Below are positions 1-37,016 of a stretch of 37,016 bases of DNA, in pieces. The stretch's first letter is position 1, and every line of letters starts with the position of its first letter. The notes beneath the pieces are model-generated. The model did not search any database and was not told where the DNA came from. It was given only the letters and a program-made list of their open reading frames with translations. Source of the stretch: Chloroflexota bacterium (GTDB lineage Bacteria; Chloroflexota; Dehalococcoidia; Lucifugimonadales; Lucifugimonadaceae). Location of the stretch: the NCBI GenBank assembly GCA_002718415.1, contig PBEM01000004.1, positions 1-37,016 on the forward strand, in the 5' to 3' direction. Both the position numbers and the translations under genes were made by a program.

Positions 1-576
1 TCTCCAGCAGTAATTACTTTTTATTTAGGAATTAATAAAAAATTAGATAAACTACCACATCATAAAATATTTTTATCTAAAAATATGGAAAAATCATACG
101 ATAGTATATTTAAATATGGAAAAATTCCTCACGATCCGCCTTTCTATATATCTTCTCCTTCATCCACAGATGAAAGCATGGCTCCTAAAGATTGCTCTAA
201 TATTTTTATTCTTGTTCCAGTTCCAACAATAGATAAAAAAAAATATTACAGTCGAAAAGAAATTTCAGATATTAGAAATAAAATTTTCAAGAGATTAGAA
301 TTATCTGGATCTATTATTGATGAAAGATTTATAGATTTTGAAGAAGTTTGGACACCTAATGACTGGGCTGAAAATTTTTCTCTAACAAATGGATCCGCAT
401 TTGGAGAATCTCATAATTTTTTCAACATAGGACCTTTCAGAAGTAAAAATTATTCCAAAAAAATTAAACATCTATTTTTTACTGGTTCATCTACTACACC
501 AGGAACTGGAGTCCCAATGTGCTTAATTAGTGGACAAATGACCGCAGAAAGGATAAAAAAATTATTTGAAAAATAA
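1..576 (+). CDS. crtI: Phytoene desaturase family protein (CrtI-like), C-terminal part
   Basis: The reading frame is open from the first base of the window, so the gene is 5'-truncated by the window edge; the first internal ATG at 85 is not the true start. About 191 C-terminal residues are visible. They start with a stretch ending in the LPHHKIFL segment typical of bacterial CrtI and finish with the conserved FAD-binding block (FTGSSTTPGTGVPMCLISGQ), the counterpart of 'GASTHPGGGVP'. CrtI enzymes are FAD-dependent, membrane-associated desaturases that add conjugated double bonds to phytoene. The gene overlaps the next one by 11 bases and begins a five-gene carotenoid operon that holds a second CrtI paralogue at 2438. 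Which step this copy catalyses cannot be told from the fragment; phytoene to lycopene is most likely because the paralogue sits beside cruF. Confidence 0.85.
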   Translation, partial: SPAVITFYLGINKKLDKLPHHKIFLSKNMEKSYDSIFKYGKIPHDPPFYISSPSSTDESMAPKDCSNIFILVPVPTIDKKKYYSRKEISDIRNKIFKRLELSGSIIDERFIDFEEVWTPNDWAENFSLTNGSAFGESHNFFNIGPFRSKNYSKKIKHLFFTGSSTTPGTGVPMCLISGQMTAERIKKLFEK

Positions 577-1318
577 AGATTTTAAGATATTGGGAAAAGG
601 GGAACCTAAATTCATAGCTGTCCATGGATGGGGTGATGATAATTCTACATTTGATCCTATTGAAAAATACATCCCGGAACATTTGTCAATTTTATGTCCT
701 AATTTACCAGGATACGGTGGATTAGAACCTCCTAGTGAATGGACTGTAGAATCAATCTCAAAAAACTTAGTCAAATTTCTAGAAGAAAGAACAGATCTTG
801 AAAATAAAATTTTCATAGGAAATTGTTTTGGTGCAGTACCAGTCCTAGAAATGTTAATTAGAAAATATATATCTCCTACTAAAATAATAATTATAGATCC
901 TTATGCTTTTATTCCTTTTTATTTTAAAATTTTCCTTGCTGGTAAATTTGGAGAAAGAGCCTATAAAACTACTTTTGATTCCAGAATAGGGCGTTTTATT
1001 ACAAATTTTGCTCTTAAAAATCATAGAACAGATGAATCTGATTTAACTAAATCTTTCAGTAAAGTAGACCATGATTCTGTACATAAATATTTAAAATTAA
1101 TGTCTAAAATTAGTGGTCCTGAAAAATATAAAGATATAAACGTACAAATAAAAATTCTTTACGGAGAAAATTCTTTCGGTGCTGTTAAAAAATCTGCTTG
1201 GATATTAAAAGAATTATGGCAAAATAAAGCTAATTTATATCAAATTCCTAACTCTGGACATTTACCTATACAAGAAAATCCAAAACATTTATCTGAAATA
1301 ATATTTAAAAATGAATGA
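566..1318 (+). CDS. Alpha/beta hydrolase-fold protein with a Cys nucleophile, in carotenoid operon
   Basis: A 250-residue alpha/beta-hydrolase. The oxyanion segment HGWGDD lies at residues 20-25, the nucleophile elbow reads G85-N86-C87-F88-G89, and the catalytic His is H232 in the motif NSGHLPIQENP. The usual Ser of the GxSxG elbow is Cys here. The usual acid position after the sixth strand is Ser203 (YGENS); E201 or D111 could serve instead. The start is TTG at 566, inside crtI; a second TTG at 590 is possible, and no strong ribosome-binding site decides between them. The gene overlaps crtI by 11 bases and the glycosyltransferase by 8, so it is co-translated with carotenoid enzymes. Esterase or acyl-transferase action on a carotenoid glycoside is an inference. 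Ordinary housekeeping hydrolase activity is the alternative. Confidence 0.8.
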   Translation: MKNKDFKILGKGEPKFIAVHGWGDDNSTFDPIEKYIPEHLSILCPNLPGYGGLEPPSEWTVESISKNLVKFLEERTDLENKIFIGNCFGAVPVLEMLIRKYISPTKIIIIDPYAFIPFYFKIFLAGKFGERAYKTTFDSRIGRFITNFALKNHRTDESDLTKSFSKVDHDSVHKYLKLMSKISGPEKYKDINVQIKILYGENSFGAVKKSAWILKELWQNKANLYQIPNSGHLPIQENPKHLSEIIFKNE

Positions 1319-2441
1319 GCTAATACTTATAATTTCAATTGTTATTTATTCACCATTTGTTTTTGCTACTTTGACAAATATTATTTTTTTCAAATCCTTA
1401 AGAAGTGAAGAATTTAATATTAATGAAGATTTATTTATAGACTCTGTATCAGTCCTAATTCCAGCAAGAAACGAAGAAAAAAACATCGGAAAATGTCTAA
1501 ATTCTCCAGGATTAAATGATAAATGTATTTATGAAATATTGGTCTATGATGATGATTCTACAGATAATACAAAAAAAATAGTAGAAAAGATAATGGAAAA
1601 AAATGGGAAATTAAAATTAATAAAAGGTTCAACTAAACCACAAGGTTGGGTTGGTAAAACAAATGCGTGTTTTGAATTATCCAAAAAAGCTAGTTCACCC
1701 TACTTTCTTTTTCTAGATGCTGATACTGAACTAAATAAAAATGTGATTAAAATACTTATACATAAATCAAAATCAAATAATATAACCTTAATATCTGCCT
1801 GGCCAAAATTATTACTAAAATCTTTTCCTGAAAAGATTCTGATGCCTATGTTGAACTTTTTAGTCTTCAGCACATATCCTGGAATATTATCTAGTAAAGT
1901 AAAATCTTCATCAATGGGGATAGCACATGGTGCAATGATTCTATGTAATGCAGATGTATACAAAAAAATAGGAGGGCATAAAATTGTTAAAGAATCTCTA
2001 TTTGAAGATACAACTTTAGCAAAACTTTGGAGAGCAAATAACGAAAAAACATTACTGATAAATGGTAAAAATATTGTAAGTACTAGAATGTATAATAATA
2101 CAAATGAAATTTGGAATGGATTCAGCAAAAATTTTTACCCTGCATTTAATAATGACCTAAAATTTTTTCTTTTTATAACATTCTTTTTATTCAGTTTTGT
2201 CCTTTTCCCAATACTTATAATTTTATTATCATCATTTAAAATCATAAGTATCTTTCTTATATTCATAGTAGTAGCGCCATTAATATTAAGACTTATAATT
2301 GATATAAAATTTTCTAGTACTTTATTTAGTGCAATATTTTACCCAATTCCAATAATTTTTATGTTTTTATTAGGATTGAATTCAAGAAATAAATTTCTGA
2401 AATCTGGTGTCGAATGGAAAGGGCGTAAATATAAAAAATGA
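1311..2441 (+). CDS. Membrane family-2 glycosyltransferase, carotenoid type (CruG/CrtQ-like)
   Basis: A 376-residue GT-A glycosyltransferase. It begins with a membrane helix (about residues 3-25), followed by the GT2 nucleotide-sugar core: SVLIPARNEE, the VYDDDSTDN acidic strand, GWVGKTNAC, the metal-binding FLFLDADTE, and FEDTTLAKLWRAN. Three or four hydrophobic helices close the C-terminus (about 280-360). This layout matches the CruG and CrtQ glycosyltransferases that attach sugars to hydroxylated carotenoids. Placement between two desaturases and immediately before cruF supports transfer of a sugar to a tertiary or 2'-hydroxyl of the carotenoid end. It overlaps the upstream hydrolase by 8 bases and the downstream desaturase by 4 (ATGA). 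Sugar donor and acceptor position cannot be read from the sequence. Confidence 0.82.
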   Translation: MNELILIISIVIYSPFVFATLTNIIFFKSLRSEEFNINEDLFIDSVSVLIPARNEEKNIGKCLNSPGLNDKCIYEILVYDDDSTDNTKKIVEKIMEKNGKLKLIKGSTKPQGWVGKTNACFELSKKASSPYFLFLDADTELNKNVIKILIHKSKSNNITLISAWPKLLLKSFPEKILMPMLNFLVFSTYPGILSSKVKSSSMGIAHGAMILCNADVYKKIGGHKIVKESLFEDTTLAKLWRANNEKTLLINGKNIVSTRMYNNTNEIWNGFSKNFYPAFNNDLKFFLFITFFLFSFVLFPILIILLSSFKIISIFLIFIVVAPLILRLIIDIKFSSTLFSAIFYPIPIIFMFLLGLNSRNKFLKSGVEWKGRKYKK

Positions 2442-3880
2442 GTAAATCTTTAGTGATAATAGGTGGAGGATTAGGTGGACTATCTTTAGCTTTAATTGCA
2501 GCAAAGAAAAATTGGAAAGTAAAAATAATTGAAAAGAATTCTTCTTTAGGTGGAAAACTTAACCAAAAAAAAATTAATGATTTAAAGTGGGATTCAGGGC
2601 CTTCATTAATTACCTATAAAAATATATTCGATCAACTACTTAGTTTTTCAGAGAAAAATAATAACCCTCCAAAATTTATAAGGTTAGATAATTTATTTAG
2701 ATACAAGTTTTCAGACGGAACAAATTTAGATTACGTGTCTAACCTAAATCATCTCATAGCAAACATTCAAAAGATAACTGAAGATAAAAAAGATGTTATG
2801 GGATTTTTAAATTTTATAGGTTTAGGAGAACAAATTTTTAATTTATCTGAAAAAACTTTTTTTAAGAATTATTTATTTAATCAAACTAACCTACAAGGTT
2901 TAAAAGAACTACTTTCAGTATCGCCAATTAAAGCTTTTGGAAATTATTCTAAAAATGTTTCTAAAAATATAAAAAATCCAAATATACAACAACTTTTACT
3001 AAGATATCCAACTTATGTTGGATCTTCTCCATATAAAGCACCATCAACTTTGTGTATGATTCCTTATTTAGAGTTAGCTTATGGTGGTTGGTATATAAAA
3101 AATGGATTATATGAATTGGTAAATTTTATAAAGAAAGATTTAATTGATAAAGGTTGTGAAATAATTATGGAAGAAGAAGTAAACAAAATAGAAATTTCGA
3201 ACAATAAAATCAGTTCTATATCTACTAAATCAGGTTTCAAAATATCGGGAGATGAATTCGCCTTCAACATAGATCCGGATATAGTATATAAAATTTCGGA
3301 TGGAAAGATAGGAAAAAATCTTAAACAAAAAGATGCTTCAATGTCCGGAGTAGTAATCTTAGGTACATTACCAATCAAATCAACACCAAAAAATCATCAT
3401 ACAGTAATTTTCAGTAATAATTATAAACAAGAATTCGATCAGATATTTGATGATTATTCATTTCCAGATGAACCTACCATATACATAAACAACCCTCCAA
3501 AAAATGATAATAATTATAATGAAAAAGAAATATTTATAATGGCTAATGCTCCTCCTAATGGTAATAATTGGTCTGATGAAAATACAAAATCTAGCTTGGA
3601 TAAAATTTTGAATCTATTAGATAAAAAATTAAGTATCGCTAATGATTTAAAAATTTTGGATATTTGGAATCCAAATAGATTTTCCAAAGATTATAATTGT
3701 CCATTCGGTTCAATATATGGAAGAGTTTCTCATGGTTGGCTAAATACATTCCATAGAAACCCCTTAAAAAAGTCGAAAAATACTCACTTTTTAGGAGGTG
3801 GTGCTCATCCTGGAGGAGGAACACCTACAGTAATCATTTCAGCTTTTTTATGTGCAAAAAAATTAGGAATAAAAATATGA
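2438..3880 (+). CDS. crtD: CrtI-family carotenoid desaturase (CrtD-like)
   Basis: A 480-residue FAD enzyme. The N-terminal Rossmann motif IGGGLGGLSLALIAAKK is followed by the acidic strand end and IEKNSSLGGKL. WDSGPSLIT is the substrate-site segment conserved in CrtI/CrtD enzymes, and the C-terminal FAD block GGGAHPGGGTPTVIISA is intact. Length is normal for the family. It is a second CrtI paralogue in the operon, next to a CruF hydratase and a glycosyltransferase. That context favours a CrtD role, desaturating the C-3',4' bond of a 1'-hydroxycarotenoid as in myxol or hydroxylated acyclic carotenoids. A CrtO-type ketolase or a second lycopene-forming desaturase cannot be excluded. It starts in an ATGA overlap with the glycosyltransferase, and its stop overlaps the cruF start. 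Confidence 0.8.
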   Translation: MSKSLVIIGGGLGGLSLALIAAKKNWKVKIIEKNSSLGGKLNQKKINDLKWDSGPSLITYKNIFDQLLSFSEKNNNPPKFIRLDNLFRYKFSDGTNLDYVSNLNHLIANIQKITEDKKDVMGFLNFIGLGEQIFNLSEKTFFKNYLFNQTNLQGLKELLSVSPIKAFGNYSKNVSKNIKNPNIQQLLLRYPTYVGSSPYKAPSTLCMIPYLELAYGGWYIKNGLYELVNFIKKDLIDKGCEIIMEEEVNKIEISNNKISSISTKSGFKISGDEFAFNIDPDIVYKISDGKIGKNLKQKDASMSGVVILGTLPIKSTPKNHHTVIFSNNYKQEFDQIFDDYSFPDEPTIYINNPPKNDNNYNEKEIFIMANAPPNGNNWSDENTKSSLDKILNLLDKKLSIANDLKILDIWNPNRFSKDYNCPFGSIYGRVSHGWLNTFHRNPLKKSKNTHFLGGGAHPGGGTPTVIISAFLCAKKLGIKI

Positions 3881-4587
3881 TAATAATTATTAAAATCTTA
3901 TTATGGTTAATTTTTATGACTATGAGTATAGGTGGAATTTTTTCATTATTTTTTGATTTAACTTTTTCATATGCCCCATTAATATTAATGACTTCTGGAT
4001 TTTTCATAACTTTATTTAGTTCTGAAAATAAAAAGTCGTTCATGGTTATTTTATTATTAATAATTTTTGGAGTTTTTATAGAAAATATAGGTGTAATTTA
4101 TGGAATACCGTTTGGATCTTATGTATACAGTGATTACTTAGGAATAAAATTATTACATACTCCGGTTGCTATAGGCTTTGCATGGGTTATGCTAACAATT
4201 CTAGCTTCTTCCTTTGTTAATCATAATATATCTCTAAAAAATTTATTTTTAGGCGCCTTTATATTAACTTCTTTTGATTTAATTATTGATCCTGTATCAG
4301 TAAATGTAATGGGAGCTTGGGAATGGGAATCTTCAGGAATATATTATGGAATTCCACTCTCAAACTTTATAGGTTGGTTCTTAACCTCTATATTGGCAAT
4401 GATAATATTATTAACTTTTAAGCCAAAAATATCTTACTTTGGAAATCTTCCTGGAATAATTATTCTTACTTTTTTTTGGATTATTTCTATTACAGAAGGA
4501 ATGATTATACCCTCAATATTAGGATTGATATTAATTGTTTATTTTGTAATTAAAAACATAAGAAGTTTGTTTAAAAAAATATTCTAA
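3877..4587 (+). CDS. cruF: CruF-type carotenoid 1,2-hydratase (DUF422 membrane protein)
   Basis: A 236-residue integral membrane protein with about seven hydrophobic helices. Family landmarks are ENIGVIYGIPFGSYVYS, then LLHTPVAIGFAWVML, and the signature GAWEWESSGIYYGIPLSNF followed by GW. CruF adds water across the terminal C-1',2' double bond of lycopene- or gamma-carotene-type ends, giving the hydroxyl used in later steps. The longer frame opening at 3850 would start with CKKIRNKN and run through the end of crtD. The ATG at 3877 is chosen because it sits in an ATGA overlap with the crtD stop, the coupling used by its neighbours, and begins the first membrane helix. It is the last gene of the operon and converges on the thioredoxin-fold gene with one base between the stops. 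Confidence 0.87.
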   Translation: MIIIIKILLWLIFMTMSIGGIFSLFFDLTFSYAPLILMTSGFFITLFSSENKKSFMVILLLIIFGVFIENIGVIYGIPFGSYVYSDYLGIKLLHTPVAIGFAWVMLTILASSFVNHNISLKNLFLGAFILTSFDLIIDPVSVNVMGAWEWESSGIYYGIPLSNFIGWFLTSILAMIILLTFKPKISYFGNLPGIIILTFFWIISITEGMIIPSILGLILIVYFVIKNIRSLFKKIF

Positions 4588-4588
4588 T

Positions 4589-5041
4589 CTAAATTTTACT
4601 AATATTAATGGGAGGCTTATTAGATCTATAAAAAATTTTTTCTTCTGTATCAGTACATATCCAAGTGGGTACAGATTTGATGTTGAATTTTTTTATAAAA
4701 CTTCTATTATTATTTTTTGTTACATCAATTACATTCAAATTATTGTATAGATCTTTATTGGAAATATTATTGATTACATCTGAAAATAAACAACCGGCGC
4801 ATCTAGGAGAATGGAAATAATAAATTTCATAATCACTATTTATTGAAGAACCAATTGAAGGATGGGTAACATAAATTCTTAGAAATAAAAATAATGATAC
4901 TAATATAATAGTTGAAATTATACTTACTAAGATTCCAAAAAAATATGTAGTTAATCCAGAAACAAATAAAGGAATTAAAATTAGTGAATTTTTATTCATA
5001 TACTCATAAATAAACCTTGAAACTTTTATCAATAAATTCAT
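4589..5041 (-). CDS. Membrane-anchored thioredoxin-fold protein with CAGC active site
   Basis: A 150-residue protein. Two hydrophobic helices (about residues 18-36 and 38-57) are followed by a thioredoxin-like domain. The domain shows the dithiol motif C81-A-G-C84 after a beta strand (EIYYFHSPR) and the cis-proline segment SVPTW at 123-127. With the N-terminus anchored in the membrane, the domain could face either side; a role in disulfide exchange or in reducing a membrane partner is likely from the fold. The start ATG overlaps the stop of the MMPL transporter gene (ATGA), so the two are translationally coupled and may act together at the membrane. I do not recognise a named family. It is shorter than DsbA/DsbD proteins and lacks the ResA/TlpA insertion. 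Confidence 0.7.
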   Translation of the reverse strand: MNLLIKVSRFIYEYMNKNSLILIPLFVSGLTTYFFGILVSIISTIILVSLFLFLRIYVTHPSIGSSINSDYEIYYFHSPRCAGCLFSDVINNISNKDLYNNLNVIDVTKNNNRSFIKKFNIKSVPTWICTDTEEKIFYRSNKPPINISKI

Positions 5042-35844: not shown

Positions 35845-37016
35845 TTACGGTACAATGTCCGGTGTTGAGCCGTCGCTTTGAGCTTTTACGTATAACCATA
35901 AACCATCACCAATAGTGGCATTGGTTTGGTTATCAGCAAGATTTAGACCATCAAATTCAGCAGATGCAGCTAAGTATTTATAACCCTTAGTTACAGTCGT
36001 ACCTGCAATGTAGTCAAACAAATCTTGGTTTGTTGACGAACCATCTATATTCACAGCAAGTTGCGTACCAAAGTCTGACTTTTGAGTTTGAATCTTGTCT
36101 TGGTCAACTACACCAATCAAGTTCCAACCAGCAACTACTGGTATAGTGATTAGAGCTGGTCTAACATCACCTGCACCTGAAGGTCCAGATAACGCTACAG
36201 TCTGATCTTCAAAGTCTGAAGACTCAACCCAATATCCAGCACCAGCTGTTATATTTTCTAACTTAGGAGTTGTCTGACTAGTCCACACACCTTCAGCTTG
36301 AGAAGCAATTCTCCATGGCTGTTTAGGTGTAGTAGCTGAGTATGTAACAACCTGCTTGATTCCTGTGTTAGAGAATACATTAGCAATTGCTGTATCTACT
36401 GGATCTGAAGGTACTGAAATCAAGTTCCAACCTGCGTACAGAGTCATCTTGAAGTCAGTTCTAGCAGACTTAGTTACTGTCAATGTGTCAGTATCAGTGT
36501 TACCAGCAGAGTCTTTTGTTTTGATTACAAATTTGTGTTTTCCAGTGGCAAGTGCTTCACTCGGTCGATAGAACCAGGTTATACCATTTGCACTAGAAAC
36601 CAAATCAGCAGCTATGTCTACAAGGTCGACTCCATCTGCACCAGCATCTACTGTAGCAGAGGTAATAGTAAGAGCAGTTGACTCTCTATCCTCAGCTGCA
36701 GTTCCTGAAGCTGCAAAATCAAACTGTATGTAAGGTCGATCTTGTGTAGTTGTAGCTGGAGACATAGCGGCGTCACCAACTTTACTGTCTAGAGTATAAA
36801 CGTATGTGCTAGTCTTAGTGTCACCACCAGCTGTTGTCTCGTTAGAGGCAAGGTCAGTAGCTAGTACACGAATAGCCATTTTTCTAGATTCAGTAGAAGT
36901 TCCAGACGAATTTGTATTATCTAGAACTATAGAGTAGGTGTTACCACCTTTAGCAGTAGCTACACCAGATCCTCCACCACTACCAGTAGCGGCAGTTCCA
37001 CCTTCACCAGCTGTGT
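35845..37016 (-). CDS. Surface-layer-type protein with AGWNLI repeats, C-terminal part
   Basis: The frame is open through the right window edge, so the 5' end is missing; the ATG at 36879 is internal. About 390 residues are visible. They begin with a Gly/Ser/Ala-rich stretch and Ig-like or cadherin-like beta segments (RVLATDLASNETTAGG, and GKHKFVIKTKDSAGNTDTDTLTV). Two copies of a module starting LYAGWNLISVPSDP (near 36440) and VAGWNLIGVVDQDK (near 36135) follow; both contain aromatic motifs such as GYWVES and GLWLYV. It ends SDGSTPDIVP with no membrane helix. Such modules occur in large Chloroflexota cell-surface proteins. G+C and use of C-ending codons (AAC, TTC, TAC, AAG, ATC) are visibly higher than in neighbours, consistent with a very abundant protein or with transfer. 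A terminator follows. Confidence 0.78.
   Translation of the reverse strand, partial: TAGEGGTAATGSGGGSGVATAKGGNTYSIVLDNTNSSGTSTESRKMAIRVLATDLASNETTAGGDTKTSTYVYTLDSKVGDAAMSPATTTQDRPYIQFDFAASGTAAEDRESTALTITSATVDAGADGVDLVDIAADLVSSANGITWFYRPSEALATGKHKFVIKTKDSAGNTDTDTLTVTKSARTDFKMTLYAGWNLISVPSDPVDTAIANVFSNTGIKQVVTYSATTPKQPWRIASQAEGVWTSQTTPKLENITAGAGYWVESSDFEDQTVALSGPSGAGDVRPALITIPVVAGWNLIGVVDQDKIQTQKSDFGTQLAVNIDGSSTNQDLFDYIAGTTVTKGYKYLAASAEFDGLNLADNQTNATIGDGLWLYVKAQSDGSTPDIVP

Follow-up and report, generated by a model that had tools for sequence, protein, structure and literature searches.

A conserved family of alpha/beta-hydrolase-fold proteins with a cysteine at the nucleophile position in carotenoid operons of SAR202 Chloroflexota and other bacterial phyla

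The window, by which we mean the whole 37,016-nucleotide stretch of Chloroflexota DNA analyzed here, opens with an operon of overlapping genes in the order crtI, abh, GT, crtD-like and cruF, in which abh is the gene under study and GT encodes a glycosyltransferase (Table 1). Because the window begins at base 1 of contig C4, its crtI is a 3' fragment that has lost its 5' part. An earlier note on this DNA reported that abh overlaps both of its neighbors, and this is borne out by overlaps of 11 nt with crtI (abh start at 566, crtI stop at 576) and 8 nt with GT (GT start at 1311, abh stop at 1318). GT in turn overlaps the crtD-like gene by 4 nt. The glycosyltransferase matches the HpnB and CruG models, each below its curated cut-off, and has no match to a CruC model. 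The operon probably makes acyclic, hydroxylated carotenoid glycosides. Convergent with it lies a gene for a 150-aa protein (4589-5041, minus strand) that is hydrophobic near its N terminus, contains a CAGC motif and has no Pfam or NCBIfam match. At the other end of the window, 35845-37014 (minus strand) is the 3' portion of a gene for a large Thr/Ser-rich protein of repetitive sequence, which continues beyond the window.

Table 1. Genes of the operon and codons of interest in abh, in window coordinates.
Feature	Position	Strand	Evidence
crtI-type carotenoid desaturase, 3' end only	1..576	+	TIGR02734 crtI_fam 8.3e-47; NF058655 8.9e-45
abh, Cys-nucleophile alpha/beta hydrolase gene, 250 aa, TTG start	566..1318	+	PF12697 1.2e-12; PF00561 6.2e-9
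Family-2 glycosyltransferase (GT), CruG/HpnB-like	1311..2441	+	PF00535 5.9e-22; HpnB 4.6e-42; CruG 1.5e-36
CrtD-like hydroxycarotenoid 3,4-desaturase	2438..3880	+	NF045637 6.6e-75, below curated cut-off
CruF-type carotenoid 1,2-hydratase	3850..4587	+	PF04240 1.3e-31, above cut-off; TIGR03460 1.6e-29
Cys87 codon, nucleophile elbow G-x-C-x-G	824..826	+	Cys in 39/39 family members
Asp111 codon, proposed catalytic acid, beta6 end (IIIIDP)	896..898	+	Asp in 38/39, Glu in 1
Ser203 codon, at the canonical beta7 Asp position	1172..1174	+	Thr/Ser in 37/37 members containing the region
His232 codon, putative catalytic base	1259..1261	+	His in 37/37 members containing the region

Profile and predicted structure both place the abh protein in the alpha/beta hydrolase superfamily. 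It scores 49.4 bits against PF12697 (Abhydrolase_6; cut-off 26.3), its significant matches to PF12697 and PF00561 (Abhydrolase_1) span most of its length, and its AlphaFold2 model (mean pLDDT 94.9, pTM 0.92) has the canonical fold. In a fold search against the PDB, it matched alpha/beta hydrolases with Z of about 24-25, the best being the esterase 5h3h (Z 25.2); D14, KAI2, RsbQ and MenH matched with Z of about 23-24, and DAD2 was also among the top matches. Many unrelated small esterases, at 12-16% identity, were equal in fold score. Because all small hydrolases score alike, the search fixes the fold of abh, not its reaction. The best sequence relatives lie in the Abhydrolase_6 branch of BioH, MenH and small serine esterases, which share with abh the fold, the elbow, the HG oxyanion region and the His after beta8. 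abh differs from them in having Cys in place of Ser, Thr/Ser in place of the beta7 Asp, and a putative acid at beta6, and it falls far below the NCBIfam equivalog cut-offs for bioH (32.1 versus 206.95) and menH (31.3 versus 208.55).

A Cys nucleophile is uncommon in this superfamily. The earlier note had read a Cys at the site of the catalytic Ser, an intact H232 and no Asp at the usual acid position (YGENS), and each of these readings holds: the elbow is G85-N-C87-F-G89, residue 232 is His, and in Y199-G-E-N-S203, after beta7, a Ser occupies the Asp position. Profile alignments pair Ser203 with the Asp of the Ser hydrolases 10xn and BioH 4nmw. A scan of genome contigs yielded 38 abh loci, those of SAR202 included, and adding the window gave 39 sequences from SAR202 Chloroflexota, Acidobacteriota, Planctomycetota, Hydrogenedentota, Verrucomicrobiota, Kiritimatiellota/Lentisphaerota, Myxococcota and Lujinxingia. 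Within the window's own family-level group of SAR202, 14 of 76 genomes carry abh. Two loci come from assemblies titled Rhodobiaceae (L049) and Paceibacterota (L050); in the tree their abh genes group inside SAR202 and Verrucomicrobia, and these are probably misbinned or mislabeled metagenome-assembled genomes (MAGs).

The elbow Cys is present in every one of the 39 sequences, and its conservation is not an artefact of the search, because the scan patterns covered the GWGG and IDPF regions and left the elbow out. Three SAR202 genomes were examined for their other Abhydrolase_6 proteins, in which every readable elbow contains Ser; these score at most 74 bits against the family profile, compared to 343-352 bits for the two abh family members in the same set. 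Together, the invariant Cys and the Ser of these other proteins rule out sequencing error, chance or a single-genome oddity as the source of Cys87. In a tree that is rough owing to some long branches, a moderately supported branch (83/85) separates the Cys family from the other proteins. No relatives were found among viral contigs, and in samples of the class and of the phylum every match at E 1e-20 belonged to family f1. Judged by its sequence, abh belongs to a conserved family of enzymes with the alpha/beta-hydrolase fold that has yet to be named. We know of no description of a multi-phylum family that joins a Cys nucleophile to a beta6 acid site, and a literature search for enzymes of this kind in carotenoid operons yielded no paper.

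The probable catalytic residues can be placed on the model. Strand 82-86 leads directly into Cys87, with which helix 87-98 begins; Asp111 comes immediately after strand 106-110, and Ser203 is found shortly beyond strand 194-200. In the model, the identities and strand positions of Cys87, His232 and Asp111 appear to fit a nucleophile elbow, a His after beta8 and an acid after beta7 or beta6. An acid at the beta6 end is a recognized alternative, termed "group B", exemplified by D176-P177 of pancreatic lipase and by ZenA (PMC7034887, PMC10913051). On the basis of conservation, strand position and this known acid site, we propose that the triad is likely Cys87-His232-Asp111. The earlier note had paired C87 and H232 with either E201 or D111; the second option is the candidate, and E201 is rejected as the catalytic acid, since its position varies among E, D, G, Q, T and K whereas D111 is nearly fixed. 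Position 111 is Asp or Glu in all 39 sequences, a conservation that may be somewhat favored in the non-SAR202 loci because the scan patterns covered this region. Taken with the invariance of Cys87, and of His232 wherever its region is present, this argues that the active site is under selection. R143 is likewise invariant across the family.

The association of abh with carotenoid genes extends well beyond the window. The order crtI-abh-GT-crtD-cruF is conserved in SAR202 relatives, Acidobacteriota (Pyrinomonadaceae), Planctomycetota and Hydrogenedentota, and crtI lies directly upstream of abh in 23 of the 38 scanned loci and in the window (24/39), which shows genetic linkage between abh and genes for carotenoid glycosides across unrelated lineages. 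Thus, the earlier note's tie between a Cys-nucleophile hydrolase-fold protein and carotenoid synthesis is upheld, and the homologues are not, as its contrary case would have had it, mostly Ser-bearing and outside carotenoid operons. Where the upstream sequence was read, a phytoene/squalene synthase gene precedes crtI. Variations include a polyprenyl synthase gene between abh and GT in Planctomycetota and a rearranged operon in one member of the Lentisphaerota. Pairwise distances among abh proteins correlate with those of the other four proteins of the operon (r 0.93-0.97; values this high arose in 0 of 2000 permutations), which indicates that abh is a long-standing member of the operon. Among the 76 SAR202 genomes, CruF was found in 13 of the 14 with abh, compared to 9 of the 62 without it (Fisher p=4e-8, a value that is only indicative because related genomes are not independent). 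To our knowledge, no pigment structure has been described for any carrier of abh. Among the carriers of the operon is Ca. Lucifugimonas marina JH1073 (L030, CP046147), a SAR202 strain in culture; its published description covers heliorhodopsins and the inhibition of growth by light but says nothing of carotenoids (PMC10444878). Some SAR202 operons have a second hydrolase-like gene with a VIIIQGxCS motif 3' of cruF (L030 12240-13118, L037 12019-12837), and the one in L030 has weak similarity to Lipase_3.

Operons that lack abh, and abh genes that lack the operon, are both informative. Six loci of genus g10 (L124, L125, L126, L129, L140 and L141) retain crtB-crtI-GT-crtD-cruF without abh, so that crtI adjoins GT, with an overlap of 8 nt in L126. 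Because these operons are otherwise kept, abh is not needed for glycosylation, and the observation fits an optional tailoring step after it. A role for abh specific to a rhodopsin antenna was rejected, since rhodopsin is present in g10 and missing from several abh carriers. Conversely, in genome G009 the syntenic site (L045 6934-9803, contig C14) keeps crtB and an intact abh while crtI, GT, crtD and cruF are gone, and a search of this genome, which is 83% complete, found no crtI-family match past threshold. In the MAG G943 (L040 7896-9916), abh and GT form an adjacent pair, and crtI, crtB and cruF were looked for in that MAG and not found. In Verrucomicrobia subdivision 6 and the members from Myxococcota/Lujinxingia, abh does not adjoin carotenoid genes. 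However, CruF occurred in 8/8 of the Verrucomicrobia subdivision 6 genomes searched, and GT and crtI-family genes in those tested. These cases lead us to call a carotenoid glycoside the substrate less firmly.

Several characterized systems share some of the features of abh. The polyhydroxyalkanoate (PHA) synthase PhaC has a G-x-C-x-G elbow, a Cys-His-Asp triad and acyl thioester chemistry, in which the Cys takes an acyl group from a CoA thioester and passes it to a hydroxyl (PMC5509742). Unlike abh, PhaC has a large cap, and its Asp lies between beta8 and alpha4 of its structure, the canonical acid site. Membership of abh in PhaC is rejected, as no PhaC model was among the Pfam and NCBIfam hits at E 0.001 and the beta7 acid position holds Thr/Ser. 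Group B hydrolases such as pancreatic lipase, LinB-type haloalkane dehalogenase and the lactonase ZenA have the acid at the beta6 end (PMC7034887, PMC10913051), and pancreatic lipase shares D-P there with abh, but their nucleophile is Ser or Asp rather than Cys. The window operon resembles the cyanobacterial CruF/CruG pathway for myxoxanthophyll in combining a CruF hydratase with a CruG-like glycosyltransferase, and differs in having an alpha/beta hydrolase gene within it; we know of no such gene in the cyanobacterial pathway. The earlier note instead drew an analogy with CruC and CruD, the carotenoid glycosyltransferase and acyltransferase of Chlorobi, Rhodothermus and Salinibacter (PMC5822342). 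What remains of that analogy is the proposed step, esterification of the sugar of a carotenoid glycoside. The analogy is otherwise loose because the operon pairs a CruG/HpnB-like glycosyltransferase with a CruF hydratase; in addition, the candidate acyltransferase has a hydrolase fold, abh matches only alpha/beta hydrolase models in Pfam and NCBIfam, and no CruC or CruD model was matched in these profile searches.

We tentatively favor, at a probability of about 0.42, the reading that abh is an acyltransferase that esterifies the carotenoid glycoside of its operon. The catalytic acid would have left beta7, where Thr/Ser now stands, for the end of beta6. Cys87, activated by His232 and Asp111, would be acylated by a CoA or ACP thioester to form an acyl-S-enzyme, and this would hand the acyl group on to a hydroxyl of the carotenoid glycoside that the neighboring glycosyltransferase makes. 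A step of this kind after glycosylation would agree with the optional presence of abh, its intact predicted triad, the precedent of PHA synthase and the lack of a second acyltransferase recognized by Pfam and NCBIfam profiles among the operon genes. Acylated carotenoid glycosides are known, for example the glucoside salinixanthin, and CruD has been proposed for the acyl step (PMC5822342). The retention of crtB and abh alone in G009, the G943 pair, the unlinked genes in Verrucomicrobia subdivision 6 and Myxococcota/Lujinxingia, and nearest solved folds that are hydrolases rather than transferases all count against this reading.

The same putative Cys-His-Asp(beta6) triad could instead use water as the acceptor, in which case abh would be a hydrolase (an esterase or a thioesterase) for trimming or editing carotenoid esters or acyl thioesters. 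This is the main rival, and we consider it somewhat unlikely. Its catalytic set is intact, and its closest matches in sequence and fold (BioH, MenH, small esterases, D14/KAI2) are hydrolases; on the other hand, no other gene in the operon is seen to make an ester for editing, and a conserved change of Ser to Cys usually slows hydrolysis relative to transfer, which by general chemistry would disfavor such a role. It is less probable still that the substrate is not a carotenoid at all but a lipid, an isoprenoid from early in the pathway, or a glycolipid that the glycosyltransferase produces, with the operon shared for co-expression or regulation only. The exceptions described above, in G009, G943 and Verrucomicrobia, speak for this explanation, but they are MAGs of uncertain completeness, the Verrucomicrobia genomes searched have CruF elsewhere, and abh is strongly linked to, and co-occurs with, crtI and CruF. 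Finally, the presence of D14, KAI2, DAD2 and RsbQ among the top fold matches could suggest a binding protein or receptor for carotenoids or apocarotenoids whose Cys plays no part in turnover. We regard this as very improbable, given that the unrelated esterases score alike and that a full nucleophile-base-acid set is conserved with its acid site moved.

Should abh prove to be an acyltransferase, it would provide the enzyme that esterifies CruF-type carotenoid glycosides, and it would illustrate how an esterase can become a transferase in nature. We speculate, with odds somewhat below even, that the family represents an undescribed class of carotenoid (glycoside) acyltransferases, unrelated to CruD, that arose from small serine esterases through replacement of Ser by Cys and movement of the acid from beta7 to beta6, and that crtB-crtI-GT-crtD-cruF operons carried it into several phyla, most of them uncultured, and into cultured SAR202 as well. 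An acyltransferase of this kind would offer a hint about the pigment chemistry of SAR202 and of several other little-known phyla.
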